This document shows, piece by piece, positions 1 through 32,393 of a stretch of DNA of 34,177 nucleotides (position 1 is the stretch's first letter; each line of letters opens with the position of its first letter). The stretch is from a virus. The position numbers and the translations under genes were made by a program. The notes under the pieces are model-generated. The model saw only the letters and a list, made by a program, of their open reading frames with translations. It made no database searches and was not told the origin of the DNA. The stretch spans positions 6,767 through 40,943 of IMG/VR virus record IMGVR_UViG_3300030061_002087; one strand, written 5' to 3'.

Positions 1-582
1 AAAGGAGCATTACACGGCTTAACCAGGTTTAGTATGGAGGACGCTCCTGCGAACAGCTTCTTTTTAGAATACTTATCAAGACCACCTACAGCTGAGATAT
101 TCTTTGAAGATGTTCTAATGGCATTAGTATTTTATGGGATGCCTATACTTGCAGAGAATAATAAACCTCGTCTATTGTATTATTTAAGACGTAGAGGATA
201 CAGAGGGTTTAGTATGAATAGACCTGATAAAGTTTGGAATAAATTATCTGTAGCAGAAAAAGAAGTTGGCGGTATACCTAACTCCAGTGAAGATATAAAA
301 CAAGCACATGCAGCAGCAATTGAAATGTATATACAAGACCACGTAGGTATAAAACAAGATGGTAGTTTTGGTGATCTTTATTTTAACGAACTGCTAAATG
401 ATTGGGCAAAGTTTGATATAAACAAAAGAACAAAATTTGATGCGTCTATAAGTTCTGGTTTAGCTATAATGGCTAACAATAGACATTTATACGCGCCAAA
501 CGCAAAGGTTGAAAAACAACCACTAAATATAAGCATTTCCAAGTATAATAATACTGGAAGTAATTCACAAATAATTAAATAA
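1..582 (+). CDS. terL: Terminase large subunit, C-terminal part (partial)
   Basis: The reading frame is open from base 1 and the gene is cut by the window edge. The ATG at 34 is internal, since good terminase-like residues (KGALHGLTRF) precede it. About 193 residues of the C-terminal nuclease half remain. Family-like features are an EYLSRPP stretch, a FYGMPILAENN strand, and a conserved-looking RGYRGFSMNRPDK segment, as in TerL proteins of crAss-like and other Bacteroidota phages. The FDASISSGLAIMA segment (Asp codon at 439-441) resembles the last acidic motif of the RNase-H-like TerL nuclease. The ATPase domain with its Walker motifs must lie upstream. TerL cuts concatemeric DNA and drives it through the portal, whose gene starts 5 nt after this stop. 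The name rests on remembered family patterns plus its place directly before the portal. Confidence 0.82.
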   Translation, partial: KGALHGLTRFSMEDAPANSFFLEYLSRPPTAEIFFEDVLMALVFYGMPILAENNKPRLLYYLRRRGYRGFSMNRPDKVWNKLSVAEKEVGGIPNSSEDIKQAHAAAIEMYIQDHVGIKQDGSFGDLYFNELLNDWAKFDINKRTKFDASISSGLAIMANNRHLYAPNAKVEKQPLNISISKYNNTGSNSQIIK

Positions 583-11800: not shown

Positions 11801-14800
11801 TTAGTTCTTCTTGGGATATAGGTAGTGGTGCTAACGCTGGTCAATATCAAGTATTTGGAAATACTCCAGAAAGTGGTGGTTGGTTAATACCTAGCAGTGT
11901 AGATAATCCAGCTTTACTTGATTATAATGGGTATAACATTGGTACTAATACTGATTATAGAGCTAGTGAATCTTTTCAAAATCCACGCTGGACAAACAGT
12001 AATGAAACGTGGGCTTACTCAGCAAATGTGATGACATTGTCACACGGTAAAGATACAAATGGCGTTGACAAGCCTGTAAATATATATCCTAAGTCTTACC
12101 CTTATATGCTGGGCGCTTATAACGACAGTATGGGGGCGTCAGGAGGGGCAATTTCTTGTTTTCCTGATAGTCCTGCTGCAACCAGTAACACAATTTTCAA
12201 TCAAGTTTATACAAAAATGCTTTCCAGAAATGGTCTATTTTGGAAAAACCAAGGTCAAAACGATAATTGGTTTATTGACATGGAACCTACTTGGTACTTT
12301 CCAGAAAAAAACTGGAACAACGGTGTTGAAGAATATTATGCTAAAGCTGATTTATCTTCGGTTTCACCTGCTGGGTATAATAATTACAACGGCCAATCTA
12401 ACGATCCAGATATTACTGGTCAGAGCGAAAGGGGTTATAGAAACACGCCTGGAGTTGGTGCTAGATTAGGAAGTAGACGTATGGACATATCTTATGTTGG
12501 TCCAGATTATTTACCTATTTCTGCTAGTCAACCTGGTTTAGACTTTCAAGTACCTAACAATCAATTGATACATGATTTTTTAACAGGGCCAAATCCTGTA
12601 ATTGAATTTGTTGGAGATCCAGGGCAAATTAAGTATACTGTTGTAGATTACAGAGTTGTTGAACAAATTCAGAACACACCTGATGATGAATATTGCGATG
12701 CTTCTCCAACGCTTAATGCTGCTACTTTTAACTGGCCTTACCCTTCTACATCGCGCGGACTTTATAGAGTAAGATACGAGTTGTTATTAGATCAACCTAT
12801 TGGTACTACGGTTCAAGATCAAGGTATAATAACGCCAACTGAATATGTATTAGCTGGTGGAACTCCAGATGAGCATCACAATCAAAAAGGAGCTGGATTA
12901 ACAGGTGATGGTTGTTGCAATGGAACACCGGTTTATGCGAGGGAGTATAAATTTTACCCACCAAGTTACGAAGCTGTTGGCGATAGAATAGGTGATGATT
13001 TAACAAATACATCCACGCCAAGTGATTATGCAACGCTTACTGGTTGTTACTCTGCTATTACCTCTTTACCAACGGTACAGGCTGACGTAAATAGTGGTTG
13101 TGCTACAAAAAATGGCGCTTTTTATGACCAGGTTGACCCAGCATATCAAGCGTCAAATGGTAATTTTTATCACAATACAAGCAATCCAATAACTATAGAT
13201 CCAAATATATGGACAAATGCTGATGGTACAACTAGACTTGGTTATATACCAACTCAACACACTAACTATTTAGCAACTAATTCAACTCATGACGTGGCTT
13301 TGGCTAATGAAATACCAATGTCTGGTACTGGTATTACGCAAAGGTGGGCTGCAACTGAAGACCAAGAAATAGGTATACTATTAAGATCAATATTTGGAAC
13401 GGTATCAATTGGACAAGAAGAGGATGAAGCAGCTTATAATCCAGCTATATGGGAAACATTACCAATTGACCCTGTGGATTTAGAATTGTACTACGAGGCA
13501 TCTAGAAGTTATCCAATGCAAATAAAAAATGAGAATTATCAACAGATAGTCCCAATAGGTGGTACAGCAAGTTGTTATAATTGTGCGGTTGCAACTTTAG
13601 ATAGCGCAACAATATCTAATTATATAGTTATTCAAAACACTATATATTTAAGCGATCCTCATAATAACGATATTTTGGCTGGTGATATTATTAAGCTTAC
13701 ACATATAGATGGTAGTTATATTACTGTAGAGGTTGCAGAAGATACAACTAATACTCTTCGAATAAAAATAAATAATGAAATTTACAATAGTAATTTTGGA
13801 TTAGATTGGTACAATTGTTTTGCCTTTGGTAACGGTGTAGAGTCAGATAGAATATCTGATACTTTTAATTCAGATGTTATGGGTAAAGGAGTTAAAGTAT
13901 CAACAATTTTAGAAGAAGACTACGAAGAAGAGCACAGAAAATATGGGTTGATATACTCTGGACTATACAACTCAACATCTGGGGTTAATAATTTAAATCA
14001 ATTTATTGCTGCTGAAAAAATTACAAAAGATGTAAACCCTATATATGGTAATATTGAAAAACTTCACTCTAGAAATACAGATTTAATTACCTTGTGTGAA
14101 GATAAGGTGTTAAAAATATTAGCTAATAAGGATGCTGTATTTAATGCTGATGGAAATATTCAGTTAACAGCCACAGGAAACGTGTTAGGACAAACAGTAC
14201 CTTTTGTTGGTCAATATGGTATATCTAAAAACCCAGAATCATTTGCATCGGAATCTTATAGAGCATATTTCACTGATAAAACAAGGGGTACAGTGATGAG
14301 ATTGTCTATGGATGGCTTAACACCTATTTCTAATCACGGTATGAAAGACTGGTTTAGAGATAATTTACAAAATGCAACTTTTCTAAAAGGTAGTTTTGAC
14401 GATAGAAAAACTGAATATAATATAACACTTAATAATAGTGCGGATGGTACTCCAAAAACAGTCACCTTTAGAGAAGATGTTAAAGGGTGGGTTAGTTTTA
14501 AATCTTTTATTCCAGAAGAAGGGCTTAGCTGTGCAAATAATTATTATACTTTTAATAATGGTTACATGTGGAGACATCACTCTGAGCAAGATGGATATGG
14601 AGATGTAGTACCTAGAAATCAATTTTATGGAACACCAACACCATCATCTTTAAGTTTTTATTTAAATGATTTTCCTGGTTCAGTAAAGTCTTTTACTACG
14701 ATAAACTACGAAGGTAGTAAATCAAGAGTTGTTACGAACTTACAAGATAATGAGTATTATAATTTAGAAGATAAAGATGGTTGGTATGTAGAAAAAATTA

Positions 14801-17427
14801 CAACAGATAAAGAAGCTGGATCTGTTGATGAATTTGTAGAAAAAGAAGGAAAGTGGTTTAACTATATAAAAGGAGATGGTATAACAGTTAACAACTGTGG
14901 AATAATTACAAACCAAGATTTTGATGAATCTAGTCTTGCAATGCAAGGTTTTGGAGTATTGATGGAATCACCTACACCAGTTGTTGTTAGCGGTTGTACA
15001 GATCCAGCTGCCTCTAATTACGATCCAAATGCTTTAGTAGATGATGGTTCATGTATTCCAGTATTAAATGGTTGTTTAGAACTATCTGCATCTAACTATA
15101 ACTCACTTGCTACTAATGATAATGGTTCATGTTTATGGCAGGGATGTACAGATATAACAGCGTTTAATCCGACTACATTTCCTCCAATTGCTTCTACATA
15201 CGGTGGTGGTACTGGTATTGTTGATGATGGTTCTTGTATACCCGTGGTATATGGTTGTATGAATTGTGGTTCTTATTGGGAATCATTAAACGCGCCTTTG
15301 CTGTGCGGTTCATCTGGCGTTCCATCTGCCTTCCTTGGTGCTTTTAATTATGACCCTGCTGCCAATACTGACACAACACCTACCTCATGTATTAATGTTC
15401 AATACGGATGTATGGAAGCTTCTGCCATGAACACATGGACAGGTTCGCCACCGGCTAACGTTGATCCAGGTTACTGTAAATGGTTAGGATGTACTAATCC
15501 TGCTTCTAGTTATTATGGACTTGGAACTGCACATGGTCCAACACCACCTTACCCTTGGCCTCCTGAAGCATTAACTTACGTGCCTTATAATAATTCTGGT
15601 GCATATGGTATGATTGATGATGGTAGCTGTATAGACGTAGGTTGTCCAGATAGTGGTGGAACCGGTACAGGTGCAACTGGCTCTTACGACGCATCAGGGA
15701 ATGCTATTGCGGCTACGTATCCTGGTTGGCCAGCTACTAACTACTCTGCAACAGCTGTTATTAATGATGGTTCATGTGTTTGGGCAACAGGTTGTGGTGT
15801 TTCGTGGGCAAACAATTACGATCCAAACGTTCCAGTTGGATCACCTAATTGGAATGACAACTGTAATATACCTGGTTGTCAAAATTCTTTAGCATTAAAT
15901 TTCAATTGTGCAACCTCTATAAATGCTGGATCGCTAGTACCATGTTCCGATGGTGTTACTGTTAGTGACGGATCTTGTGTTTTTGCTACAAGTGGATGTA
16001 CTGAGCCTGCTGCATGTAATTATGATTCATCTGTTACTATAGACGATGGTTCTTGTGAGTATACTTCTTGTGCTGGTTGTATGGATCCACTGGCGGACAA
16101 CTACATGGTTGGATGTACAAATTTACCAGTAGCACCGTTCAATCCTACTTGTACTATTGAATGTGATTATTCTAATCCAGGAACAGATTGTTGTATATAT
16201 AATGTTTATGGTTGTATGGATGCTACTGCGTGTAATGCTTATCAAATACCTGCAACAACCCCTCCAGGAACTTGGAATTATATAGACGATGGTACTTGCT
16301 CTTACACTGGTTGTACAGATCCTACAGCATTAAATTATGTGGCTTGTGCTACTGTTAATGATGGTAGTTGTACTTATGCCGCTCTTCCTGGTTGTATGGA
16401 TGATGGTAATTTATTAACTGCAAATGGTGATCCATATGATTCTCCTATACCAGGTACCGCAGCTTGTAATTACCAACCTACGGCTAATAGTGACAACGGA
16501 ACGTGTGTATATGGCTTCCAAAGTCTTACAATGGGAGATCCAAATGCTGTCGATGTAAACGGAAATCCAGTAACATTACCACAACCGGTTTACTATCATG
16601 GTTCTCCTAATCCATCAACACAAGATACAGCTAAGCATTATTTACCATTAATGCCAGCCAATGCTAATCCTTATCCTGTTCATAATGTAAATCAACTTGA
16701 CATAGGTTTAAGCATAAAAGCTTTACTTGCTGATTTAAACACTCAATTTACAGGACAAGCTACAGATTCAGTTGAAATTGCAGTTTTAAAAGCTGACGCA
16801 AATGGAATTTTTAATATACCTGTTTATGTTAAGAGTTACCCAATGAATACTCCTAATTTTTACTTTGACACAAATGTTACTGGTTCAATACTTGGAGATA
16901 GAATTCCACCAAATCCATATGCACCAGAACCGTTTGGACCGCATCATAGTAGTGTTACTAATGTAGAATTTGATGTTTTCAAACCTGGTAGTACAACAAC
17001 TACACCAAGCGACGCTCAAGAATACAGAGTAGATGTGTGGTTTGTAAAAGATATATATGATCCAAGTGGAAATAATTTAGGTCCAGGTCCTTATGGATTC
17101 CCAGGTGGTGCTTATCCTGATTGTGGTATATCGCAAGTGTTTACATTTACACCTGAGCATATATCTCAACATCCAGCGGCTATACCTGGTTGTACAGATC
17201 CAACAGCGTGTAATTATGATTGTGCAAGTGGTAACATAAACTTCCCTTGTAGCGATGGTGTAAACGTTGATGATGGAAGCTGTTTCTTTGGCACGGCTCC
17301 ACTTTATTATTATAATCCTGGTAGTAGTTGTTGTACCCAAGGTCCAGGTTGTGATGACGGTAATTCAGGTACATCTTATACAACTCACCCAGCTTGTTGT
17401 AACGCAAATCCACAATGTTGTAATTAA
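8809..17427 (+). CDS. Giant tail nozzle / stabilisation protein with Cys-rich repeat array
   Basis: This 2872-residue protein starts 3 nt after the connector gene. The N-terminus (HNFARGKMNKDADERLVPNG, then YTDAMNIQVSTSEGSNVGTV) and the VGAVSDEKNDAFYYFV strand are typical of phage stabilisation/nozzle proteins (P22 gp10-like beta-propellers) that close the tail. Residues about 1670-2055 are another conserved-looking tail region (RKYGLIYSGLYN; LCEDKVLKILANKDA; YRAYFTDKTRGTVMRLSMDG). Between lie long Gly/Asn/Thr/Tyr-rich stretches, probably surface insertions. From residue 2062 come 14 Cys-rich repeats of the GCTDPxAxNY...DDGSC type, then a Cys-free domain (about 2570-2793), a fifteenth repeat, and a C-terminus with four Cys clusters. 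An IGMQL beta module lies near residue 163. It may combine nozzle and receptor-binding functions. No frameshift was seen over 8.6 kb. Confidence 0.72.
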   Translation: MPDIKHNFARGKMNKDADERLVPNGEYTDAMNIQVSTSEGSNVGTVQNILGNAMPLPGYQMAVIGNDSVCVGAVSDEKNDAFYYFVKSGGTSIDYTSFTSASPQGANGASKDVIFQYKNEVLTPVFVATSAFAYTIYGNGISWDTTTGTITFGPQHDVSDLSIGMQLIASGYSAGAPSFPISATDMVIVAIDTATNSITILGNLDWLDNTNTPQEFHGTKLFFTTSGSASNNTILNFVSSTNITAINIIDDMLFWTDATYDSEGNLIGSEPKKINIPRSIAGTVDAFTHTNFINEKTGVTVPAQEKHITVIKENPKAPPSMLLESTKPSGKATMGETTISFEDTANNPGELLSAGDQLIGVSINHGVWNNIVPLNTQNNLDIQVGDIMVLELYPDNELDIKFPLRDPIVQVRVTDTYVSTTVPGTPFTFETLVDFEIVFISPSTPLIDTRFLIDLKLSNTERILKFKFPKFAVRYKYQDNEYSAYSPFTQAAFIPMTWDYQPKKGLNEGMQNHLKTVTLSNIVPTNIPDGVVQVDILYKESGSSNIYLVDQIKPNDGTAHWLGDQYVIDSELIYTVVAENQILRPYDNVPKIARAQEVTGSRLVYGNYKQNYNILAENSNVRFDVSLASHNITQDGVVLGEMITGTTGVMESPHYWNPKLTTPLKSIKSLREYQIGVVFEDKYGRQSPVMTSSESTIKVSKEESGNTNLLDIKILNDAPPWADSFRFFIKEPSTEYYNLAMDRWYDAEDGNVWLTFPSLDRNKITEESTIILKKNINSNIPIEDTSEYKVIAISNEVPDFVKSTKVSYGLEDQAALTLMGTTAPQVGSSSITVDPVALTNAGGTPSSLIHAFEDWRDAEMAAKRLWIRFHKLTTPKQYSNWYEVVTMDEYEDNTGAIATDPLLVRIHTQFQDDIEFIDNGSGAFCNGAALEMARSVDTPYAAFDGRFFVKILKDLALEQTILTYDFTQAYNVVGMLQPRFLRYTGLHHMEAQMSSYNISSSWDIGSGANAGQYQVFGNTPESGGWLIPSSVDNPALLDYNGYNIGTNTDYRASESFQNPRWTNSNETWAYSANVMTLSHGKDTNGVDKPVNIYPKSYPYMLGAYNDSMGASGGAISCFPDSPAATSNTIFNQVYTKMLSRNGLFWKNQGQNDNWFIDMEPTWYFPEKNWNNGVEEYYAKADLSSVSPAGYNNYNGQSNDPDITGQSERGYRNTPGVGARLGSRRMDISYVGPDYLPISASQPGLDFQVPNNQLIHDFLTGPNPVIEFVGDPGQIKYTVVDYRVVEQIQNTPDDEYCDASPTLNAATFNWPYPSTSRGLYRVRYELLLDQPIGTTVQDQGIITPTEYVLAGGTPDEHHNQKGAGLTGDGCCNGTPVYAREYKFYPPSYEAVGDRIGDDLTNTSTPSDYATLTGCYSAITSLPTVQADVNSGCATKNGAFYDQVDPAYQASNGNFYHNTSNPITIDPNIWTNADGTTRLGYIPTQHTNYLATNSTHDVALANEIPMSGTGITQRWAATEDQEIGILLRSIFGTVSIGQEEDEAAYNPAIWETLPIDPVDLELYYEASRSYPMQIKNENYQQIVPIGGTASCYNCAVATLDSATISNYIVIQNTIYLSDPHNNDILAGDIIKLTHIDGSYITVEVAEDTTNTLRIKINNEIYNSNFGLDWYNCFAFGNGVESDRISDTFNSDVMGKGVKVSTILEEDYEEEHRKYGLIYSGLYNSTSGVNNLNQFIAAEKITKDVNPIYGNIEKLHSRNTDLITLCEDKVLKILANKDAVFNADGNIQLTATGNVLGQTVPFVGQYGISKNPESFASESYRAYFTDKTRGTVMRLSMDGLTPISNHGMKDWFRDNLQNATFLKGSFDDRKTEYNITLNNSADGTPKTVTFREDVKGWVSFKSFIPEEGLSCANNYYTFNNGYMWRHHSEQDGYGDVVPRNQFYGTPTPSSLSFYLNDFPGSVKSFTTINYEGSKSRVVTNLQDNEYYNLEDKDGWYVEKITTDKEAGSVDEFVEKEGKWFNYIKGDGITVNNCGIITNQDFDESSLAMQGFGVLMESPTPVVVSGCTDPAASNYDPNALVDDGSCIPVLNGCLELSASNYNSLATNDNGSCLWQGCTDITAFNPTTFPPIASTYGGGTGIVDDGSCIPVVYGCMNCGSYWESLNAPLLCGSSGVPSAFLGAFNYDPAANTDTTPTSCINVQYGCMEASAMNTWTGSPPANVDPGYCKWLGCTNPASSYYGLGTAHGPTPPYPWPPEALTYVPYNNSGAYGMIDDGSCIDVGCPDSGGTGTGATGSYDASGNAIAATYPGWPATNYSATAVINDGSCVWATGCGVSWANNYDPNVPVGSPNWNDNCNIPGCQNSLALNFNCATSINAGSLVPCSDGVTVSDGSCVFATSGCTEPAACNYDSSVTIDDGSCEYTSCAGCMDPLADNYMVGCTNLPVAPFNPTCTIECDYSNPGTDCCIYNVYGCMDATACNAYQIPATTPPGTWNYIDDGTCSYTGCTDPTALNYVACATVNDGSCTYAALPGCMDDGNLLTANGDPYDSPIPGTAACNYQPTANSDNGTCVYGFQSLTMGDPNAVDVNGNPVTLPQPVYYHGSPNPSTQDTAKHYLPLMPANANPYPVHNVNQLDIGLSIKALLADLNTQFTGQATDSVEIAVLKADANGIFNIPVYVKSYPMNTPNFYFDTNVTGSILGDRIPPNPYAPEPFGPHHSSVTNVEFDVFKPGSTTTTPSDAQEYRVDVWFVKDIYDPSGNNLGPGPYGFPGGAYPDCGISQVFTFTPEHISQHPAAIPGCTDPTACNYDCASGNINFPCSDGVNVDDGSCFFGTAPLYYYNPGSSCCTQGPGCDDGNSGTSYTTHPACCNANPQCCN
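14992..17292 (+). repeat. 15 Cys-rich GCTDP...DDGSC protein repeats
   Basis: The tail protein carries 15 units that begin GC and mostly end in D(D/N)G(S/T)C. Fourteen run continuously to about base 16515 and one stands at 17188-17292, beyond a Cys-free domain. The short canonical form is about 24-27 residues (for example GCTDPAASNYDPNALVDDGS plus C). Several units carry insertions of 10-30 residues between the NY and DDGSC halves. The paired Cys of each unit suggest one disulfide per repeat, and the Asp-rich DDG turn could bind calcium. The repeats differ strongly at the DNA level, so they are old or diversified rather than freshly copied. Related repeats are frequent in secreted proteins of marine Bacteroidota. 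Confidence 0.85.
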
Positions 17428-21374: not shown

Positions 21375-21869
21375 ATGTCTAAAAATGAATTACAAAAAAT
21401 TTTTGATAACATTCCAGCTGAATCTTGGAAAAGTAAAGTTGAAGAGTTAGAAAATTATTTAACTAGCGTGGCTGATGGAGTTGATATAGTAGCTGGTAAT
21501 GGTAAAGAATTAATTTATCCTGATATGTGGGAATATAAGCACTCTTTTCCAGAAGGCGTTTATATTAGAGAAATGAGAATGAAAAAAGGCCAAATAGGTT
21601 TTTCAGCAATACACAAGCGTAGTTACGGGTTTTTTTTATTATCAGGATTACTTGCATCGTCAAAAGAAGATGGTATTGAAGAGTTTGTAGCTCCATGCTA
21701 CGTAATATCACCACAAGGAGCAAAAAGAATAGTATATGCAATTGAGGATTGTGTAATAGTAACAGTACATGCAAACCCTACAAATACGCAAGATTTAGAT
21801 AAATTAGCAAAAATGAACGTGGTATTTAATTGGGATGAATACAAAGAATATTTAAAAGAAAAAAAATGA
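21375..21869 (+). CDS. Cupin-fold phage protein
   Basis: This 164-residue protein opens the internal-virion gene block. Its centre reads as a small cupin-like beta barrel: PEGVYIREMRMKKGQIGFSA, then IHKRSYGFFLLSGLL, then EEFVAPCYVISPQGAKRIVY and a IEDCVIVTVHANPT strand. This order (E-x-MxMKKG, xHK, GxL, P-x-x-x-SPxGxKR, E-D-x-V-x-x-x-H) resembles a cupin-domain family I recall from many tailed phages, of unknown substrate. The usual metal site is only partly present (one His in IHKR and one in VHAN), so catalysis is uncertain. The C-terminus (DLDKLAKMNVVFNWDEYKEY) is helical. The stop overlaps the next start by 4 nt (ATGA), so it is probably translationally coupled to the internal virion gene. 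Confidence 0.62.
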   Translation: MSKNELQKIFDNIPAESWKSKVEELENYLTSVADGVDIVAGNGKELIYPDMWEYKHSFPEGVYIREMRMKKGQIGFSAIHKRSYGFFLLSGLLASSKEDGIEEFVAPCYVISPQGAKRIVYAIEDCVIVTVHANPTNTQDLDKLAKMNVVFNWDEYKEYLKEKK

Positions 21870-22612
21870 ATATAAATAACATGATGTTGCCTAGCAATAT
21901 AATACAAAGAACTTATGGTATGATTGCTATGGCCGGTGCTACAGTTGTTTCAGGGGTTATTGGTGGTGTTATGGCTAATAAAAACGCAAACATGGCTGAT
22001 GAACAATTTAATAAATCAGAAGCGAGAGCAAGAGAAGAGGCAGCAAAACTAGAGGCACAAAAAGAAGAGTACAAGGCTATGGACTTTAAAAATCCATTTG
22101 CTAGTATGCAAAACATGTTTGCGGAAAACGTTTACGAAGATCTAACTGTTAATCAAATGCAAGCTCAGTTTCAAGCTGAACAAGGTGCCCAACAAAGAGC
22201 CAATATAATGCAAGGTCTTAGAGGTGCGGCTGGTAGTAGTGGTATAGCAGCTTTAGCTCAAACTCTCGCAAGACAAGGTGATTTACAAACTCAAAAAATA
22301 TCAGCGTCAATAGGACAACAAGAAGCTAGAAACCAAGCGCTAAAAGCAAAAGGAGCATTGCAAGTACAAAAAGGAGCTGCTCAAGTTCAAACCGCGCAGT
22401 TGCAAGGTGAACAATGGGTTCAACAAGCTGAAATGGATAGACAAGCTACTTTACTTGGAATGCAGATGGGTCAAACTACGGGTGCTAATATGGCCCAGCA
22501 ACAAGCTCAAGCAAACCAAATGAATGCTCAAATAGCTCAACAGCAAAATATTTTAGATACAATAGGTGCTCTCGGTACAGTGGCTGGTAAAATGGATTTT
22601 ACAAAAGCATAG
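21866..22612 (+). CDS. Internal virion (ejection) protein, gp14-like
   Basis: This 248-residue protein has a short N-terminal leader, a hydrophobic Gly-rich helix (about residues 17-38, MIAMAGATVVSGVIGGVMAN) and then a long Ala/Gln-rich amphipathic coiled coil to the end. Short Gly-containing breaks occur (GLRGAAGSSGIAALAQTLAR). That architecture is typical of T7 gp14-like ejection proteins, which leave the head with the DNA and form part of a channel through the cell envelope. It precedes two larger proteins that fit the gp15/gp16 positions, although their sequences differ. The 4-nt overlap with the upstream cupin gene supports the 21866 start over the later internal ATGs. The family assignment rests on composition and position, not on catalytic motifs. 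Confidence 0.62.
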   Translation: MNINNMMLPSNIIQRTYGMIAMAGATVVSGVIGGVMANKNANMADEQFNKSEARAREEAAKLEAQKEEYKAMDFKNPFASMQNMFAENVYEDLTVNQMQAQFQAEQGAQQRANIMQGLRGAAGSSGIAALAQTLARQGDLQTQKISASIGQQEARNQALKAKGALQVQKGAAQVQTAQLQGEQWVQQAEMDRQATLLGMQMGQTTGANMAQQQAQANQMNAQIAQQQNILDTIGALGTVAGKMDFTKA

Positions 22613-22641: not shown

Positions 22642-24267
22642 ATGGCAGCAGATAGTACATTAGTGAACGCGGCATTTAGAGAGGCAATTAGTAGGGCTGG
22701 AGTAGATGTTCCAAATATGAAACCTTTAATTGATAGTAACATTGAAATTACAAAAAAAACTGGAGAAATAATTACCGGGTTAATTGGTAATATAAAAGAT
22801 GCTGAAAAAACAATGAGGTTAGGAAGAGATAAACAGCTTGCTGAATTTAAAAAAATAGCAGATAATGGGTTTACAAAACTTTATGAGCAAAAAGAACCAA
22901 TGCCAAACAAAGTTGTTAATGCTTTACGTGATAGAATTAAAGAATTAAAAGAAGAATTTGAATTAGTTAATACATATGGTAAAAACGATAACGAAGAAAA
23001 CAATGATGCTAGACTAAGATTAATGGGTGAGTTAAAAAGAATAACTGGTGGAATTATTAACACTAGATCTGATTTTCAACTTATGCTTGGCACTGCTGGT
23101 AACTGGAACAAAGAAAGAATAAATCCAGAAAACATATCAACATATCAATCTTTTTTAGATATTGAAAACATGGACACTAATGACGATGTATCAGTAGATT
23201 ATATTAATGGTAAGTTGACTTTTATTAATTCAGCTACAGGTAAACAATTTACTACTTCACAGATGAAAGAAGGTATACCTGAAATGAATAAAAAAATGAA
23301 AACCTTTGGTACTGATAGGTTTATAGCTGCAGAAAGACAAGGAATAAATGATGGTAAAAATGAGTCTTACAATTATTACGACAACGAAAGCGTTATAACA
23401 TCCGTTAAAGGTAGTTACTTAGATGAAATAGTTGATGAAGAAGATTTTATGAATGCTGCAACTATAGAGTTAGCATCTGGAGCTGGAACATTTAAAAATG
23501 ATTTATTAGACCACGCAAGCATATCTTTAGAAGTTATTAAAAATATGTATTACACAGAAGAGGGTAAAAATGTTCCTATTGGAGAAATATTTACAAAATG
23601 GGATCAAGATGGTGATGGTGATGTTGATAGCGAAGATGTTACTGCAATCAATAAATTGTCACCTGCGGAAATTGAAGCTTTTAATGCAAATCACAGAAAA
23701 GTGGTAAGCGCCTTGACAAATAGATATGATTCAGCTTTTGATCTAGAAACTTCCAAGGAATTATTTGCAAGCTGGGCGGTTAATAAAGAAAAACAATATT
23801 ATGATCGTCACTATAACTCTAATATACCACAAGTAAACCCTTCAGCATTAAGAAAAGTTGAAGGACAATCTAGAATTGGTAATAACGGTAAACTATATAA
23901 TGCTGCTACAGGCGTGTCTGAACAGGTTGGATCTGGTTATAGACTTAATAAAGCTGGTCAAGTTGTGTATGATGATAGTGACAAGTTAAAAAAATTAAAA
24001 AAGCATGAGTTAGTTACTGATGCTTTTGGAAACACTTACGAACCAACTACACATGTAATCAAAGGAGTCGCAATGGAACCTGATATTACAAAGAAAGGTT
24101 ATATTGTAAGAGATAGTGAAGGCGTACCTGTAATGTTTGACGATGAATACGAAAGTAAGGCTTTAATAAAAGAGGGTAAGATATACAAAACTAAGGAAGG
24201 ATATATATTTTATGTTGTGGATCAAGCTAGAAGAAATTTAGTAGGAACAGTAAAATCATTAGGTTAA
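22642..24267 (+). CDS. Probable internal virion protein with an EF-hand-like loop
   Basis: This 541-residue protein sits between the gp14-like and giant polyvalent genes. Residues 1-130 are mainly helical and charged (KKTGEIITGLIGNIKDAEKT; LRDRIKELKEEFELV). Residues 321-332 (DQDGDGDVDSED) match a canonical EF-hand or dockerin calcium loop: Asp at positions 1, 3 and 5, Gly at 6, a hydrophobic residue at 8, and an acidic residue at 12. It is flanked by helix-like segments, and no second loop was seen. The last 130 residues are rich in Tyr, Lys and Gly with short strands (GNNGKLYNAATGVSEQVG). No enzymatic motif was recognised. Its position suggests a protein packaged in the capsid. It lies 14 nt before the giant gene and is likely co-transcribed. 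Confidence 0.5.
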   Translation: MAADSTLVNAAFREAISRAGVDVPNMKPLIDSNIEITKKTGEIITGLIGNIKDAEKTMRLGRDKQLAEFKKIADNGFTKLYEQKEPMPNKVVNALRDRIKELKEEFELVNTYGKNDNEENNDARLRLMGELKRITGGIINTRSDFQLMLGTAGNWNKERINPENISTYQSFLDIENMDTNDDVSVDYINGKLTFINSATGKQFTTSQMKEGIPEMNKKMKTFGTDRFIAAERQGINDGKNESYNYYDNESVITSVKGSYLDEIVDEEDFMNAATIELASGAGTFKNDLLDHASISLEVIKNMYYTEEGKNVPIGEIFTKWDQDGDGDVDSEDVTAINKLSPAEIEAFNANHRKVVSALTNRYDSAFDLETSKELFASWAVNKEKQYYDRHYNSNIPQVNPSALRKVEGQSRIGNNGKLYNAATGVSEQVGSGYRLNKAGQVVYDDSDKLKKLKKHELVTDAFGNTYEPTTHVIKGVAMEPDITKKGYIVRDSEGVPVMFDDEYESKALIKEGKIYKTKEGYIFYVVDQARRNLVGTVKSLG

Positions 24268-24281
24268 AATAAAATATAAAT

Positions 24282-27200
24282 ATGAACGAAGAAATACTAA
24301 ACAATGTTTGGGAGCAGTTGTCTAGCAATAATTTAACTGATAGTGACTTTGAAACTTGGAAAATAAATTTTACCGAAGATAAAGATATACAAACTAATGT
24401 ATATAATTATTTAAAAGAAAATTATAATTTAGAAGCCACTAACCAAGAGCAGTGGACGAATAGTATAATGGGAAAGACAAACGGCACGCAGGAGGTAGAT
24501 GCGCCTGTAGTGCCAAACGTAAAACTAAACGTTACGGATTTAGCATCGGAACTTTCTTCATTGGGGTTGAGCGAAGAAGAGCTTGGGGAGTATGAAACTT
24601 CTTTAAATAACGCTTTTGTTGAAACAGAGGCTGCTATGGAAGATATTATTGAAAAAGCAAATGCTGAACCTGAAAAAATTGGAAAAATTATAAGCGCACC
24701 TTATTCTAGTACATTTGTTAAGAGTAAAACCGATTTTACAGAAAAGTATGTATTTGATGAGTTTTTAAACGAAAGCAAAACCAACAAGGAAGAAGCGAAA
24801 CAAAGATGGATACAACAAGAAAGAGAAAAAATACAAACTGAAAAATTAGAAGAAGTTTTTGAACAATTAAAAGAAGATGTATTGCCTTGGTGGACTGGTC
24901 CAGTTGGATTTGCTGAAAAAATTGTAGCTCCTTTTTCTAGCTTAGTATATCAACCTGATTTAACACCTGATTTAACGCCTGTAACCGTAGATGAAACAAC
25001 GGGTGAAACAAGAGAACTTACAGAAGAAGAGTTAGAAAAATATAAAAAAGACAAGGTTGATTACGATATAGAATCTAGCTCTGGATATAGAAAAAAAGAA
25101 TTAGAATATGAAAAAGTTAGGAATTTATTATATGACGAGTATTCTTCTAAACTAAAAGAGTTAAACCCAAAAGGTGATAAAATTGCAAAAAATATTAAAC
25201 TTTCTATGGGACAGCTTGATACTATAGATGCAGAGTTAAAAAAATTAGAAGCAGCGTATAGGATAAACCCACCAACCACACAAGCAGAAGTAGATTATTT
25301 TAATGGATTAATACTTAAAAGAAAAGGTTTGTATTCTAGTTACAAATCAAATTTAGCTAAGCTAAATGAAATAAACGTTAACTTTGACTCAATAGCTTCT
25401 ATAGCTGATATGGTTAAAAGAACTTATAGTAATATCGATGTAACAGCAAATAGAGTTGAAAGCACTGTTCTTAAATTAAAATCTGGTTTAACAAAAACCG
25501 CTAAAGAGCTAACAATTGGTGCGGTAGAAAAGTTTTCTGATGTTGACTTAAACTCAGAAGAAAACTTAGATCTTGTAAGTGACTTTATGAGACCACTAGC
25601 CAAAGGCGTGGGTAATTTAGGGGATTTTTTAGATAAAACATCTTTAGAGCTTTACCAAGAAGCAGAAAAAATAAATGAATTTACTGAAAAAAGACAGGCT
25701 TTAGGTGAGGTAAGTGATATAGAAGATTTTGGAGAGTTTGTGCTTGATCTTTTTAGTGAACAATCAGTAAACTCAGCTATAACTATAAGTACAGGTGGTC
25801 TAGGTTTGGGTATTGTTGCAGCTGGTGCTACAGGTAATAAATTTACCGCTATGGATATGGAACTTGAAAATGGTAGATATAATCCTAGAACAGGTAAAAT
25901 GGAAAAAATAGAAATATCACCATTGCAATATTATGCTGCTGGTATGGGTTATGGTTTTGCGGAATATGTTACAGAAAAAATATCTTTAGAAAATCTTAAA
26001 CTAGGTACAAGAGGTTTTAGAAACGCGCTAGATAAAGCTGGTGGTAAATATACTTTAAAATCATTTAGCTTTAATAAAGCTTTAAAGTCTTATAGAAAAT
26101 CTATGAGAAGAGAAGGTTCGGCAGAATTTTTTGCCTCTATACTACAAAACAGCTTAGATAGACATGTTTTAGAAAACAAAGAAGTTGGTATTATGGATGG
26201 TGCTGTGGAAGCTTATTTTTCAGGCGCGGTTATGTCTGGCTTAGGGTTTAATGCGCCAGCTTTAGCTGCTGCCGCTTATAGAGCCGCAACACCATCTAAA
26301 GGTTGGGACAAAATAAACGAAAATACTAGAAAGATAATAGAACTTTCAGAAGTGTATGATCAAATTATTCTTGGGCCTAGAAATCAAGAAACTCTTGACC
26401 AAGCTAAAGCTATAAGAGAGCAAATGGATAATTTGCTAAAAGATAATTTAATGCAAAAAGGTTTTGCAGAAAAAAGAATAGACCAATTATCTAATAATGA
26501 TAAAAGAACTATTTTAGATTTAGAAACTAAAAGAAATAGACTTGCAGCTAGAATTGATAAGCTTAGCGATGGTAAAAATACTGATAAAAAATACGTTAAA
26601 AGTATAGTTGAGGCACATTTAGCTCAAATAAATAATCTTGAAAGTAAAAAAGACGCTATATTAAATAACGCTATGTATTCTAGTGACATGCGTAAAACTA
26701 CTAAACTTACTTTAGAAGACGCTATATTAAAAGGTTTAAACATTAAAAGTATTGAAGCTGATAATAATCAAGACGCCTTAAAACAAGCGTTAGAGCATGT
26801 TGACCAATCAGACTTAGAAGCAGACCAAAAGAAAGCGCTTAAAGATAAACTTAAACAAACTTTTGGTCAAGTAGACGTACACGTACATGGTTTTGCTATT
26901 GGTAAAGAACAAGGACTTCCTATACAGTTTCAAATGAAGTCTAACGCAACCAACGCCGAATCAGGTAATGCTTCTGTGCATTCTCACGAGTTAGGACATA
27001 ATTCTATTTTTGCCAAAATAATAGAAGGCAATGGAGATATGCTTGGTTTGGTAAATGAATTTGAAAAATATATTAGAAATAGATTTAAAGGGTTTTCCGA
27101 AATTATAGACCAAGAAGGTAGATTTCAATTAACTCAATATGCTACTGATGCAAAAACAGTAAGAGAAGAGTTAAAAAAAGAATTAGGTAAAGAACCAACT

Positions 27201-30200
27201 CAAGAGCAAATAAATGATAGAATATATTTAAATAAAGTAAGCATAGCCGAAGAAAAACTAGCTGTTGCAACTGATTATATAAGGAGATATCATAATGAAA
27301 AAATAGATAAATCTTTTAAGGGCAAGCTGTTAGACATGTGGAGTAAGACTAGAAATCCTGATGATATAAATGAAATTCAAAATGGAGAAGATGTGTATAA
27401 CATGTTAACTAGTTTTGTTGCTGGGTTTGAAAAAGGTGAAATGTCTGGTTTAGCCGCGAAAGTAATAGAGGGTAAAGTAAAAGCACGTGAGCGTGATGCT
27501 AAAAAAGTAGAAGATACTAGAATTAAAGAAAAGAAATCCGCAACTAAAGCTGTTAATGAATTAGGTGAAATGGGTTGGACTAACAAGACCTGGAAAGAAC
27601 AAGGTGCTGATTTTGTTATTAAAGAAATGCAAGATAACAAAATGCTTGATGGTCTTATATTAGCTCAACCACACGTTGGTATTGATAATGACACTTTTTT
27701 AAGCACTACATATGCGGAGCTACTGCCACACATAAGAAACTACAAACCAGAAAACGAAAATCCAAATGGATTGTTTGGTTGGGTAAACCCTCAAATAGGT
27801 AACAAAGCAAAACAAGCTTATAATGCTATAACAAAAAGCGAAATAAAAGGCACTAAAGAAATAGGTGAAAAAACCAAAGAAGGAGATGTAAAAGTTCAAG
27901 TTGCAGCTGAAAAATCTACTGAGATGGAAGCTTTTGAAACGGAGGATTTATCACCAGAAGCTCAAGCCAAAAAGAAATCTGATGAAGCTAAAGTTAAAGA
28001 AAAAGTAGAGTCTGAGTTTAGAAAAAAAATAGGTATTGAAACCGGTAGTGATTTATATAACAAAGTTTTAGAATCTGCTCGTAAGGCTTTATTAAAAGCT
28101 TATGAAGTAGGTACAGCGGCTAGAAATATACAAAGAAAATTAAGAAACGAAGCTAATGAGTATTTATTTAAGTCGATTAAAAACTTTTTAGGAACTAAAG
28201 ATTATGTTAAAAATTTAAAAAAGTTTAGAGTACCTATAGTTAACGCTTTGTTTACAGCTGATTTAGTACAATTAGAACGTAATGTTCCTGAAAATGAAAG
28301 AATATTTACAGAATTTGTTAAAAAACTTACTTCAAAAGAAGAAGTTCAAGCTGCGGTTGATCAAAATTTATTACCCAAATCAGCTTTAAATATTATAGAT
28401 AAGGGCACGGCTGTAAGTTTATATAAAAAGAAAATACCTACAGAAAAACAGTTTTTAAGTTTCTTTTATACTCCATTAATTAACCCTGTTACCGGTGCTA
28501 GATCTGGGTTAAGAGGTACTAGAAAAGATGGTTTAGCAAAAGGTATGGCTGGCGCATTAGCTTATGACGCAACATTAGAAGTTGCTCAAGAGCAAGAAAT
28601 TATAGATAAAAGAGCAACGCTAGCAGAAATAAACGGCACAGAAATACTAAAAGACGATATACAAAGGTTGGCGGATGTTATAAATAGAGACCCTAATGTT
28701 AAGTTTTCAACAGCAACTAACAATATAACTTATAAACAAAAAGCTATTAAAATTAGAGCTGGAAAAGTAATTATTGACTTTACTCAAGCTCAAACAGTTT
28801 TAGATGATATTTTTAATAATAATTCTAAAATTAGTTATTATAAAAATTTAACAGATAAGCAAGCTGATAAATATGGTGGTAAGTTTATTATAGATGCTAT
28901 TGTTGATGCTTATCACAATAGAGGTATTGAGCGTGTAGATAGTAAGGCTATAGTTAAGTTCATAAAGAAAAACAAAAGAAAAAAAGATAAAATTAGCACT
29001 GTTTACGAACAGTTTTTTATCAGCTCAGCTGTAATAGCTTTAGAAAAAATATCAGGAAAAAAAGCTAAAGTTAATTTAGTTGTAAGAGAAGGTGGTATTC
29101 CAGATGTTCATTTTGAACTAGATGGCAGATCAATAGGTTTAGAAATAAAAATGGACAGTGCAAGGGGTGTTTCTCAAACTTGGAAATTTAACGATACTTT
29201 TTCTAATGAAAATCCTGTAGATAAGGATGCTACAAACAAGCTTATTAAAAAAATACAAGATACAGCAAAAAATTCTATATTTAAAGGTATGGATTTTGTA
29301 AATGGCGTTACAAATTTACAAGTTAAAGAGCTACGTATATTTAAACAGCTTTTTAATCATTCTGAAAAAGTTACAGCAGCATACTTAGAATATCATTATA
29401 CAAACAAGGCTATACCTGAATACTTTATAAACATTGGTAATGCTGGTTTATTTTACATGTTAGATTCAAAAAATCCAGCTATAAATGGTGAAATTTTAGC
29501 AATAGCAGAAAAGCTTGGTATACCTAGATTGAACGGAACTTTTGATTTAATATCAAGAATGAATATAGGTTCTGTTAGAGTAGATGGAACTAGATCAACT
29601 ACTATTAGAATTGAACCAATGATTGATTCAAAGTCTAAGGAAAATTTTCCTAATAGCTCAACTGTAAATTTATCAAATAAAAAAGACATGAGTTCTTTTG
29701 TTAAAGAAATAAACAACTCTTTGGTTTCATTTAGTAGATCTGCAAATGGTCAAACACTAGACAAAGCTATTATGTTTTCTCGTTCAACTAGTAACAAAAC
29801 CAAAGGTATTACTGTTTTAGATTTTGATGATACATTAGCTACAACTAAATCAAAAATTAAGTTTACTAGACAAGATGGTACAACTGGTACTTTAAATGCT
29901 GAAGAATATGCTAGTACGTATGAAAACTTATTAGATCAAGGTTACACTTTTGATTTTTCAGAGTTTAATAAAGTTGTTAAAGGTAAAAAAGCACCTTTAT
30001 TTGAAAAAGCAATAAAATTGCAAAATAAGTTTGGTCCCGAAAATATGTTTGTACTAACGGCTAGGCCCGCTGAATCCGCGCAAGCAATACACGAGTTTTT
30101 AAAAGAAAATGGCTTAAACATACCGCTAAGAAACATTACTGGCTTAGCTAACTCAACGGCAGAGGCTAAAGCATTGTGGGTTGCTGATAAAGTTGGTGAA

Positions 30201-32393
30201 GGTTATAATGATTTTTACTTTGCTGATGATGCTTTACAAAACGTACAAGCTGTTAAAAACATGTTAGATCAATTTGATGTTAAGTCTAAAGTTCAGCAAG
30301 CTAAAGTTAAGTTTAGTAAAAACATGAGTAATGATTTTAACAAAATACTAGAAAAAACAACTGGTGTTCCAGCTAAAGAAATAATAGCTGGTGCTGTGGC
30401 AAAAAAACGTGGCGCTAGAAAAGGTAAATATAAATTTTTTGTACCACCATCAGCAGAAGATTTTACAGGTTTGTTATATTATTTCATGGGTAAAGGAAAA
30501 CAAGGAGATAAAGATGCTGTTTTCTTTAAAAAAGTTTTAATAGATCCTTTAAATAGAGCTTATACAGAATTAAATGAAGCTAAGCAATCTATAGCAAATG
30601 ATTATAGAAATCTAAAAAAAGAAGATAAAGAAACAGCTAAAAAACTAAATAAAACAACTCCAGATGGAGATTTTACATATGGAGACGCTGTTAGAATTTA
30701 TTTGTGGAATAAAGCCGGTTTTGATGTTCCAGGTTTAAACCAAAAAGATATTGATAAATTAATTGAATTAGTTACTAGCGATCCTAAACTAATGATATTT
30801 GCTTATAAACTAGGTAAAATATCTAAACGACCTGAAGGATATACAGAACCAAGCGAGCATTGGCAAGCTGGAGATATTAGAAACGATTTAGATGATGCTA
30901 CTGGTAGAATTGGTAGAAAAGAATTTTTTACTGATTTTATTGAAAATAGTGATATTATATTTAGTAAAGATAATTTAAATAAAATTGAATCTATATACGG
31001 TTCTAATTTTAGAGAAGCTTTAGAAGATATATTATATAGAACTAAAACTGGAACTAACAGGACTATTGGTGGAAATAGATTAGTAAATCAATTTACTAAT
31101 TGGATAAACGGTTCTGTTGGTACTGTCATGTTCTTTAATGCAAGATCAGCTATATTACAAACATTGTCTACTGTTAACTTTATAAACTGGGGAGATAATA
31201 ATATTTTTAAAGCGGCTAAGGCTTTTGCAAATCAACCACAATACTGGAAAGATTTCGCTATGATATTTAACTCAGATAAATTAAAACAAAGAAGGTCTGG
31301 TTTAAGCATGGATATTAACGCTAATGAACTAGCCACGTATCTCAATAAATCTAAGTCAAAACCTAAAGCGGCTATAGCTTGGTTATTAAGTAAAGGATTT
31401 TTACCAACACAAATTGCAGATAGTTTTGCTATTTCAGCTGGTGGTGCTACTTTTTATAGAAATAGAGTTAACACTTATATAAAGCAAGGTTTAAGTAAAA
31501 AAGAAGCTGAAACAAAAGCTTGGAGTGATTTCTCTGAACTATCAGAAGCTACTCAACAATCAGCTAGACCTGATATGGTTTCACAACAACAAGCATCTCC
31601 ACTTGGCAAATGGTTGTTAAATTTTCAAAATACACCGATGCAGTATGCTCGTTTAATGAAAAAAGCTGTTTTAGACTTAGTTAATAATAGAGGTTCTAAA
31701 AGAGCAAATATATCAAGAATAATGTATTATGGAGCTGTTCAAAACTTAATATTTTACACTATGCAGTCAGCATTATTTGCTATGATGTTTAGCGATGAAG
31801 AAGATGATGATGAGTTTTTTGAAAAGAAAAAAAGTAGAGTTGCCAACAGCATGGTTGATGGTTTACTAAGAGGAATGGGTATTGCTGGTGGTGTTATTGC
31901 TACAATGAAAAACATGATTCAAAGGTTTGTTGAAGAAGATAGCAAGGGCTATAAAGGTAAACCTATTGAAAAAGTTGCTCTTGAAATGACTAACGTATCT
32001 CCAGTTGTAGGTATTAAATTTCAAAAAATAGTTAAAACTCCAATTCAAGGATATGGTTATAACAAAAATGTTATCAAACACATGGAAACTTTTGACATTG
32101 ACAATCCACTTTGGGGATCTGTAACTAGTATTATTGAAGGAGCTACTAATGTTCCGTTAAATAGATTTTATAATAAAACTCAAAATTTAAGAGCAGCAAC
32201 AAGAGATGATGCAGAAGCTTGGCAAAGGCTTGCTTTGATTAGTGGTTGGTCTACTTGGAATATTGGCATGCAAAACGAGGAATTGGAAAAAATTAAAGAA
32301 GAAGTTAAAAAAGAAAAAGAAAAAATTAAAAAGAAGAGGAAAAAAAGACCAAGTAGACAGGAAACTAGAAGAAAAAATTTAATGAAAAGGTGA
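24282..32393 (+). CDS. Giant polyvalent protein: protease, nuclease-like and HAD domains
   Basis: This 2703-residue protein is one uninterrupted reading frame. In order: a short N-terminal helical module (1-60); a hydrophobic Gly-rich stretch (about 496-516); coiled coils (about 676-795); a metalloprotease-like domain with HELGH at 902-906 and an acidic AEEKLA segment at 989-994; a conserved-looking block with RSGLRGTRKDG near 1407; a PD-(D/E)xK-like motif (PD at 1607-1608, ExK at 1621-1623); a HAD-like domain (DFDDT at 1847-1851, LTARP near 1925, DD at 1982-1983); a long helical C-terminal region with hydrophobic stretches near 2480-2505 and 2525-2548; and a very basic Lys/Arg tail. Short FS(R/K/T) motifs separate several blocks. 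This matches the polyvalent proteins described in phages, thought to enter the host with the DNA. Its place after the gp14-like gene supports an ejected virion component. Confidence 0.72.
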   Translation: MNEEILNNVWEQLSSNNLTDSDFETWKINFTEDKDIQTNVYNYLKENYNLEATNQEQWTNSIMGKTNGTQEVDAPVVPNVKLNVTDLASELSSLGLSEEELGEYETSLNNAFVETEAAMEDIIEKANAEPEKIGKIISAPYSSTFVKSKTDFTEKYVFDEFLNESKTNKEEAKQRWIQQEREKIQTEKLEEVFEQLKEDVLPWWTGPVGFAEKIVAPFSSLVYQPDLTPDLTPVTVDETTGETRELTEEELEKYKKDKVDYDIESSSGYRKKELEYEKVRNLLYDEYSSKLKELNPKGDKIAKNIKLSMGQLDTIDAELKKLEAAYRINPPTTQAEVDYFNGLILKRKGLYSSYKSNLAKLNEINVNFDSIASIADMVKRTYSNIDVTANRVESTVLKLKSGLTKTAKELTIGAVEKFSDVDLNSEENLDLVSDFMRPLAKGVGNLGDFLDKTSLELYQEAEKINEFTEKRQALGEVSDIEDFGEFVLDLFSEQSVNSAITISTGGLGLGIVAAGATGNKFTAMDMELENGRYNPRTGKMEKIEISPLQYYAAGMGYGFAEYVTEKISLENLKLGTRGFRNALDKAGGKYTLKSFSFNKALKSYRKSMRREGSAEFFASILQNSLDRHVLENKEVGIMDGAVEAYFSGAVMSGLGFNAPALAAAAYRAATPSKGWDKINENTRKIIELSEVYDQIILGPRNQETLDQAKAIREQMDNLLKDNLMQKGFAEKRIDQLSNNDKRTILDLETKRNRLAARIDKLSDGKNTDKKYVKSIVEAHLAQINNLESKKDAILNNAMYSSDMRKTTKLTLEDAILKGLNIKSIEADNNQDALKQALEHVDQSDLEADQKKALKDKLKQTFGQVDVHVHGFAIGKEQGLPIQFQMKSNATNAESGNASVHSHELGHNSIFAKIIEGNGDMLGLVNEFEKYIRNRFKGFSEIIDQEGRFQLTQYATDAKTVREELKKELGKEPTQEQINDRIYLNKVSIAEEKLAVATDYIRRYHNEKIDKSFKGKLLDMWSKTRNPDDINEIQNGEDVYNMLTSFVAGFEKGEMSGLAAKVIEGKVKARERDAKKVEDTRIKEKKSATKAVNELGEMGWTNKTWKEQGADFVIKEMQDNKMLDGLILAQPHVGIDNDTFLSTTYAELLPHIRNYKPENENPNGLFGWVNPQIGNKAKQAYNAITKSEIKGTKEIGEKTKEGDVKVQVAAEKSTEMEAFETEDLSPEAQAKKKSDEAKVKEKVESEFRKKIGIETGSDLYNKVLESARKALLKAYEVGTAARNIQRKLRNEANEYLFKSIKNFLGTKDYVKNLKKFRVPIVNALFTADLVQLERNVPENERIFTEFVKKLTSKEEVQAAVDQNLLPKSALNIIDKGTAVSLYKKKIPTEKQFLSFFYTPLINPVTGARSGLRGTRKDGLAKGMAGALAYDATLEVAQEQEIIDKRATLAEINGTEILKDDIQRLADVINRDPNVKFSTATNNITYKQKAIKIRAGKVIIDFTQAQTVLDDIFNNNSKISYYKNLTDKQADKYGGKFIIDAIVDAYHNRGIERVDSKAIVKFIKKNKRKKDKISTVYEQFFISSAVIALEKISGKKAKVNLVVREGGIPDVHFELDGRSIGLEIKMDSARGVSQTWKFNDTFSNENPVDKDATNKLIKKIQDTAKNSIFKGMDFVNGVTNLQVKELRIFKQLFNHSEKVTAAYLEYHYTNKAIPEYFINIGNAGLFYMLDSKNPAINGEILAIAEKLGIPRLNGTFDLISRMNIGSVRVDGTRSTTIRIEPMIDSKSKENFPNSSTVNLSNKKDMSSFVKEINNSLVSFSRSANGQTLDKAIMFSRSTSNKTKGITVLDFDDTLATTKSKIKFTRQDGTTGTLNAEEYASTYENLLDQGYTFDFSEFNKVVKGKKAPLFEKAIKLQNKFGPENMFVLTARPAESAQAIHEFLKENGLNIPLRNITGLANSTAEAKALWVADKVGEGYNDFYFADDALQNVQAVKNMLDQFDVKSKVQQAKVKFSKNMSNDFNKILEKTTGVPAKEIIAGAVAKKRGARKGKYKFFVPPSAEDFTGLLYYFMGKGKQGDKDAVFFKKVLIDPLNRAYTELNEAKQSIANDYRNLKKEDKETAKKLNKTTPDGDFTYGDAVRIYLWNKAGFDVPGLNQKDIDKLIELVTSDPKLMIFAYKLGKISKRPEGYTEPSEHWQAGDIRNDLDDATGRIGRKEFFTDFIENSDIIFSKDNLNKIESIYGSNFREALEDILYRTKTGTNRTIGGNRLVNQFTNWINGSVGTVMFFNARSAILQTLSTVNFINWGDNNIFKAAKAFANQPQYWKDFAMIFNSDKLKQRRSGLSMDINANELATYLNKSKSKPKAAIAWLLSKGFLPTQIADSFAISAGGATFYRNRVNTYIKQGLSKKEAETKAWSDFSELSEATQQSARPDMVSQQQASPLGKWLLNFQNTPMQYARLMKKAVLDLVNNRGSKRANISRIMYYGAVQNLIFYTMQSALFAMMFSDEEDDDEFFEKKKSRVANSMVDGLLRGMGIAGGVIATMKNMIQRFVEEDSKGYKGKPIEKVALEMTNVSPVVGIKFQKIVKTPIQGYGYNKNVIKHMETFDIDNPLWGSVTSIIEGATNVPLNRFYNKTQNLRAATRDDAEAWQRLALISGWSTWNIGMQNEELEKIKEEVKKEKEKIKKKRKKRPSRQETRRKNLMKR
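26985..26999 (+). other. Zinc metalloprotease motif HELGH in the giant protein
   Basis: Residues 902-906 read HELGH, preceded by SVHS and followed by NSIFAK, the helix layout of a zincin active site with two His ligands and a catalytic Glu. Glu990 or Glu991, in a helix about 85 residues further on, is a candidate third ligand as in gluzincins. The domain spans roughly residues 870-1080. Confidence 0.65.
29100..29150 (+). other. PD-(D/E)xK nuclease-like motif in the giant protein
   Basis: Pro1607-Asp1608 lies at the start of a strand (PDVHFELDG) and Glu1621-Ile-Lys1623 on the next one (IGLEIKMD). The spacing of 12 residues and the hairpin between them fit the PD-(D/E)xK core. An upstream helix (TVYEQFFISSAVIALEKISG) could carry the first Glu. 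Predicted DNA cleavage is inferred from the motif alone. Confidence 0.6.
29808..30260 (+). other. HAD phosphatase-like domain in the giant protein
   Basis: Motif I is VLDFDDTLA with Asp1847 and Asp1849, motif II is FVLTARPAE with Thr1926, and motif IV is YFADDALQN with Asp1982-Asp1983. The order and spacing fit a HAD-family phosphatase related to the phosphatase half of polynucleotide kinases. The substrate is unknown; a nucleic acid end or a nucleotide is plausible. Confidence 0.75.

Follow-up and report, generated by a model that had tools for sequence, protein, structure and literature searches.

The window analysed here is a 34-kb stretch of a 40.9-kb virus record (G000) from IMG/VR. On its plus strand, at 24282..32393, a single uninterrupted frame with an ATG start encodes a giant modular protein of 2703 amino acids that has relatives in IMG/VR. 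The gene sits among late virion genes, at the end of the virion operon, and the gene order at this end is like that of T7 gp14-gp15-gp16. The gp14-like gene (21866..22612, +) encodes a small virion protein of 248 amino acids, which has a homologue in 76 loci and matches the MS/MS-supported phi40:1 protein gp099 at 2.7e-6. A variable gene for a protein of 541 amino acids (22642..24267, +), with homologues in seven loci, occupies the position of T7 gp15. An earlier reading of the same DNA from its letters alone (hereafter the sequence-only reading) had placed the giant directly beside the gp14-like gene; that gene is indeed near, but it lies two genes upstream, with the 541-residue gene between them.

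Three other features of the record were noted in passing. A second giant, of 2872 amino acids (window 8809-17427), carries a crAss muzzle C-terminal domain (Pfam, 3e-9), matches a virion-protein PHROG and is homologous to phi40:1 gp097. Set against the Manatee Spring homologue, the large terminase gene (G000:C1:5121-7348, the last part of which is window 34-582) shifts frame near residue 551 and is thereby split, and the split may be an assembly error or real. Away from the giant, a separate ORF of 140 amino acids (G000:C1:1951-2373) contains an HExxH motif, HEMRH.

A first scan of IMG/VR identified 78 relatives of the giant, and in a second scan, with a profile of its C-terminal part, no fewer than 570 viral stretches proved to encode relatives; these counts take in related sequences and are not counts of independent events. 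Relatives were also present on 15 MAG contigs, several of them binned as Flavobacteriaceae, Flavobacteriales or Saprospiraceae. All of the close relatives are on uncultured contigs, and a tblastn search of 50,697 phage records with the whole giant and with its HAD segment gave no match. Compared as a whole chain with Pfam, PHROGs and PDB sequences, the giant had no convincing match.

The rear half of the family, consisting of the HAD domain and the alpha-helical C-terminus, is kept among the relatives compared, and the N-terminal front is swapped. BLAST matched residues from about 1826 to 2650 in approximately 70 of the 78 relatives and residues 1-1000 in at most four. Two relatives, L002 and L003, are 69-70% identical to the giant over residues 1821-2703 and 88-89% identical in the next gene, and gave no BLAST match to residues 1-1030. 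Behind the metallopeptidase region described below, a mainly helical block (residues 1031-1480; 27372..28721, +) occurs in 42 of 79 members. No Pfam polyvalent domain reached the cut-off in the giant or in the N-terminal regions of the 78 relatives. The hydrophobic helices of the sequence-only reading are weakly borne out, with one modest segment (residues 496-517, Kyte-Doolittle approximately 1.45) passing the hydrophobicity threshold and no other above it.

In three separate alignments, the nearly invariant columns of the N-terminal region were chiefly those of H-E-x-x-H and one downstream Glu. The giant has HELGH at residues 902-906 (26985..26999, +), within a zincin-like metallopeptidase slot of approximately residues 860-1010 (26859..27311, +). 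His 902, Glu 903, His 906 and the distal Glu 991 (27252..27254, +), the third metal ligand predicted from the motif alignment and a shuffle control, are identical in all 75 motif-aligned sequences. The spacing from HExxH to the distal Glu is 50-95 residues in the family and 89 in the giant, and when the downstream sequence was shuffled and realigned no column comparable to the distal Glu appeared. Of the 79 members from the first round, 75 contain HExxH, where shuffled sequences would lead one to expect 0.58, and the motif lies 869-1584 residues upstream of HAD motif II in 123 of 126 evaluable giants. The three exceptions are L048, a short partial ORF, and L134 and L171, which read HDxxH. On this conservation, the proposed protease motif bears the signature of a putative HExxH...E zincin.

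The region before the HExxH helix had a pLDDT below 50 in the AlphaFold model, and its beta sheet was not confidently modelled. Foldseek gave no significant match in the PDB for a model running from the zincin to the nuclease-like module, and of 28 pattern matches returned when the zincin segment's close relatives were sought, none was confirmed. Because this is the sole active site that is invariant while the N-terminus around it is swapped, its conservation points to a housekeeping (processing) role for the predicted metallopeptidase rather than a role in attack. The protease would on this view be more than an optional effector among the several of the sequence-only reading.

A PD-(D/E)xK nuclease-like module occupies residues 1590-1790 (29049..29651, +), with the motif GIPDVHFELDGRSIGLEIK at 29103-29150. 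Across the eight members that have the module, Val 1601, Gly 1604, Asp 1608, Glu 1621, Lys 1623, Tyr 1706 and Ile 1716 are invariant; the charged residues among them form D-x12-E-x-K, and the motif proposed from the sequence stands as a signature. The AlphaFold model of the module is confident, and its matches to the Hjc/RecU resolvase fold are weak (probability 0.05-0.21).

The HAD phosphatase domain (residues 1840-1990; 29799..30251, +) contains motif I as DFDDT (1847-1851), motif II as TAR (1926-1928), motif III as Lys 1963 and motif IV as DD (1982-1983). Across 68 sequences, motifs II, III and IV show no change at their key residues and motif I almost none; the sequence-only reading had recognized the domain from three motifs, and all four prove to be conserved. 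DxDDT occurs in 73 of the 79 first-round members, against 3.0 expected in shuffled sequences. The giant's HAD domain matches PHROG 415, "polynucleotide kinase", with an E-value of 1.1e-6, as do the HAD domains of 17 of 25 members, the best at 3e-7. Foldseek returned class C acid phosphatases at probabilities of 0.89-0.92 with E-values of 0.4-0.6, and comparison of the HAD profile with PDB sequences gave no relevant match. We also considered DFDDT as an RNA polymerase motif (the DFDxD of crAss-like phages) and rejected this, since it is followed by the remaining HAD motifs (T, K and DD).

Eight relatives carry an inserted domain that lengthens the stretch after HAD motif I. Six of these have a P-loop kinase in the HAD cap; one was scored (AAA_33 at 3.7e-10, zeta toxin at 2.3e-8) and the other five were identified by inspection. 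The other two have an insert like ART-PolyVal, with E-values of 0.001 and 0.004 that are below Pfam's cut-off. Insertion into the HAD cap has recurred, with either a kinase of the zeta-toxin/Pnkp type or an ART-like domain as the insert. Inteins were rejected as an explanation of the inserts, which read as kinase and ART-like domains. The HAD match and the six nested kinases recall the polynucleotide kinase/phosphatase family of PHROG 415; unlike that family, the giant has no kinase, the kinase of its relatives is nested rather than in tandem, and the function is a predicted one.

Downstream of the HAD domain, a conserved all-alpha region (residues 1995-2690; 30264..32351, +) is shared by 78 members. 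AlphaFold modelled residues 1800-2703 with a pLDDT of 75.9 and a pTM of 0.67, as a Rossmann-like HAD domain followed by the all-alpha region. Searched against BFVD with Foldseek, this C-terminal model matched phage polyvalent proteins with E-values of 1e-13 to 1e-8, a TM-score of about 0.5 and 12-16% identity, and some of the matches are named "Large polyvalent protein associated domain" or "PolyVal ADP-ribosyltransferase". The modelled fold suggests that the giant belongs near the polyvalent proteins. The sequence-only reading had proposed a profile comparison with the LPD families as a check, and no LPD model matched, either in the Pfam scans or in the profile-profile comparison made for LPD38. 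LPD38 was not found by sequence, and the profile-profile comparison with LPD38 proteins from Bacteroidota genomes was not significant and near its negative controls; a weak colinear signal (E-value 0.0018) came from the Manatee Spring giant alone. Structure prediction, the other check proposed, gave the C-terminal model above and a confident model of the nuclease-like module, but the zincin region was modelled with low confidence and the nuclease fold matches were weak.

The chain ends in a basic tail. Its last 45 residues (32256..32390, +) include 19 Lys/Arg and eight Asp/Glu, in agreement with the very basic tail described earlier, and the tail is net positive in most relatives. Among the relatives, L061 has a 430-residue insert (residues ~1848-2277) between the HAD domain and the C-terminal region, and the piece of it that was tested had no Pfam match. 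L032 and L074 have a C-terminal tail rich in Cys and His, which is DUF5763 in L032.

The operon of the window is colinear with operons of cultured flavophages, including gp090-gp101 of phi40:1. The last three genes of phi40:1 (gp099, gp100 and gp101) carry a structural annotation that derives from MS/MS. The syntenic gene of the Flavobacterium phage elemo is annotated as a structural protein. Residues 440-770 of the giant (25599..26591, +) form a module that is common to these syntenic virion giants. A profile of the module, built from the IMG/VR family only and without any cultured sequence, matched the elemo giant at 1.4e-30, phi40:1 gp101 at 9e-28 and phi19:3 gp129 at 8e-20. The elemo giant and gp101 thus share with the giant the operon position, a homologous module and, for their part, annotation as virion proteins; they differ from it in that gp101 has neither HExxH nor DxDxT and the elemo giant has HExxH and lacks DxDxT. 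By analogy with these proteins, the giant is probably packaged in the virion and injected along with the DNA, the MS/MS evidence reaching it only through synteny and this one shared domain. The closest cultured relatives of the portal protein infect Flavobacteriia, which fits the Bacteroidota host assumed from the sequence.

In polyvalent proteins, enzymes of unrelated kinds are joined in a single chain, which is encoded near virion genes (PMC5512222). A zincin is their hub domain, the one most often present in such combinations, and has been proposed to process the chain (PMC5512222). The main text of Iyer et al. 2017 (PMC5512222) mentions neither phosphatase/HAD nor PD-(D/E)xK domains by name. 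The giant resembles these proteins in joining several unrelated modules into a chain of giant size with a zincin-type site in mid-chain, in being encoded by a late virion gene and in its C-terminal fold, and its relatives have ART-like and kinase modules. By its conserved signatures it contains at least two unrelated predicted enzymatic domains, and the sequence-only view of one 2703-residue gene uniting three enzymatic modules is upheld by one ORF with three active-site signatures conserved across relatives. It differs in that it matches no catalogued LPD or MPTase-PolyVal model and that its family keeps one chassis, the HAD domain and C-terminus, and swaps the front. In the Pfam scans the ART-PolyVal model was absent from the giant and was seen in two relatives only, below the cut-off. 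Another comparison is with the N4 virion RNA polymerase (vRNAP, gp50), in which an HExxH domain is followed by a large alpha-helical region and which is ejected with the DNA (PMC12633501). The giant shares with it the size of the chain, the HExxH domain and the large alpha-helical C-terminal part, but has a HAD domain between the latter two, and searches of Pfam, PHROGs and PDB sequences gave it no match to a single-subunit RNA polymerase domain.

We infer, with a probability of roughly 0.6, that the giant is a virion-ejected protein of the polyvalent type with a self-processing protease, and that it is the third and largest member of a trio like gp14/gp15/gp16. This reading is the best supported because of the operon position, the domain homology to a protein detected by MS/MS, the polyvalent-like C-terminal fold and the modular N-terminus; the ejected multi-enzyme protein first proposed from the sequence survives in this form, though against it stand the lack of a match to any LPD model, the absence of HExxH and DxDxT from phi40:1 gp101 and the low-confidence model of the zincin region. 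The source would be a marine podovirus related to the cultured flavophages, which would package the giant as its third ejection protein. The chassis of HAD domain, alpha-helical region and basic tail would provide for packaging next to the DNA and for ejection, with the module at residues 440-770 belonging to the portion that serves ejection. Once inside the host, the chain would be cut by its invariant metallopeptidase, which would free the modules to act early. The most likely activity of the HAD domain would be to dephosphorylate nucleotides or the ends of nucleic acids, and the PD-(D/E)xK module would cut DNA or RNA. Action on host defences or the host chromosome, as in the sequence-only reading, is conjectural.

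The giant could also be ejected while its protease serves morphogenesis, trimming head proteins, the giant itself or others, as the particle assembles and being inactive in the host. An active site that is invariant whatever its neighbouring modules is what a housekeeping role of this kind would produce, and such a role is proposed for P1 DdrB, which is cleaved before packaging (PMC5512222). The nearest architectural parallel, the N4 vRNAP, is however packaged unprocessed (PMC5512222), and we consider an assembly protease unlikely, if a serious candidate. A mainly mechanical protein like T7 gp16, forming part of an envelope channel and with enzymes acting on the envelope only, would suit the T7-like gene order and the module common to other virion giants. 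Pfam found no lysozyme or transglycosylase domain of the T7 gp16 kind in the giant, though, and the D-ExK, HAD, kinase and ART modules are suited to cytoplasmic targets (nucleic acids, nucleotides or proteins) and not to peptidoglycan, which makes a purely mechanical function decidedly improbable.

The motifs might, finally, be vestigial or ornamental, left over from former enzymes whose folds now serve structure alone, and the few relatives that read HDxxH and the incomplete occurrence of DxDxT in the alignment could be taken in that sense. But the catalytic residues are the best-conserved positions of a fast-changing N-terminus, and in three of the relatives where DxDxT seems lost from the alignment (L039, L041 and L060) it is present ahead of an inserted domain, so that decay appears very improbable indeed. 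We prefer the ejected, self-processing polyvalent-type protein to all of these.

A broader proposal, offered tentatively and with the odds somewhat against it, is that the giant represents a very large marine family in which an ejected chassis with a compulsory internal protease delivers exchangeable effectors, the HAD cap docking kinases or ADP-ribosyltransferases. If this is true, a kinase in the HAD cap would make a nested kinase-phosphatase, which may serve to heal nucleic-acid ends. The analogy first drawn from the sequence becomes a defined family, with several hundred viral sequences, an invariant protease site, a conserved phosphatase and mapped swappable modules. The role of the zincin common to polyvalent proteins becomes testable by a single point mutation, and the family points to a reserve of marine phage effectors still to be read.
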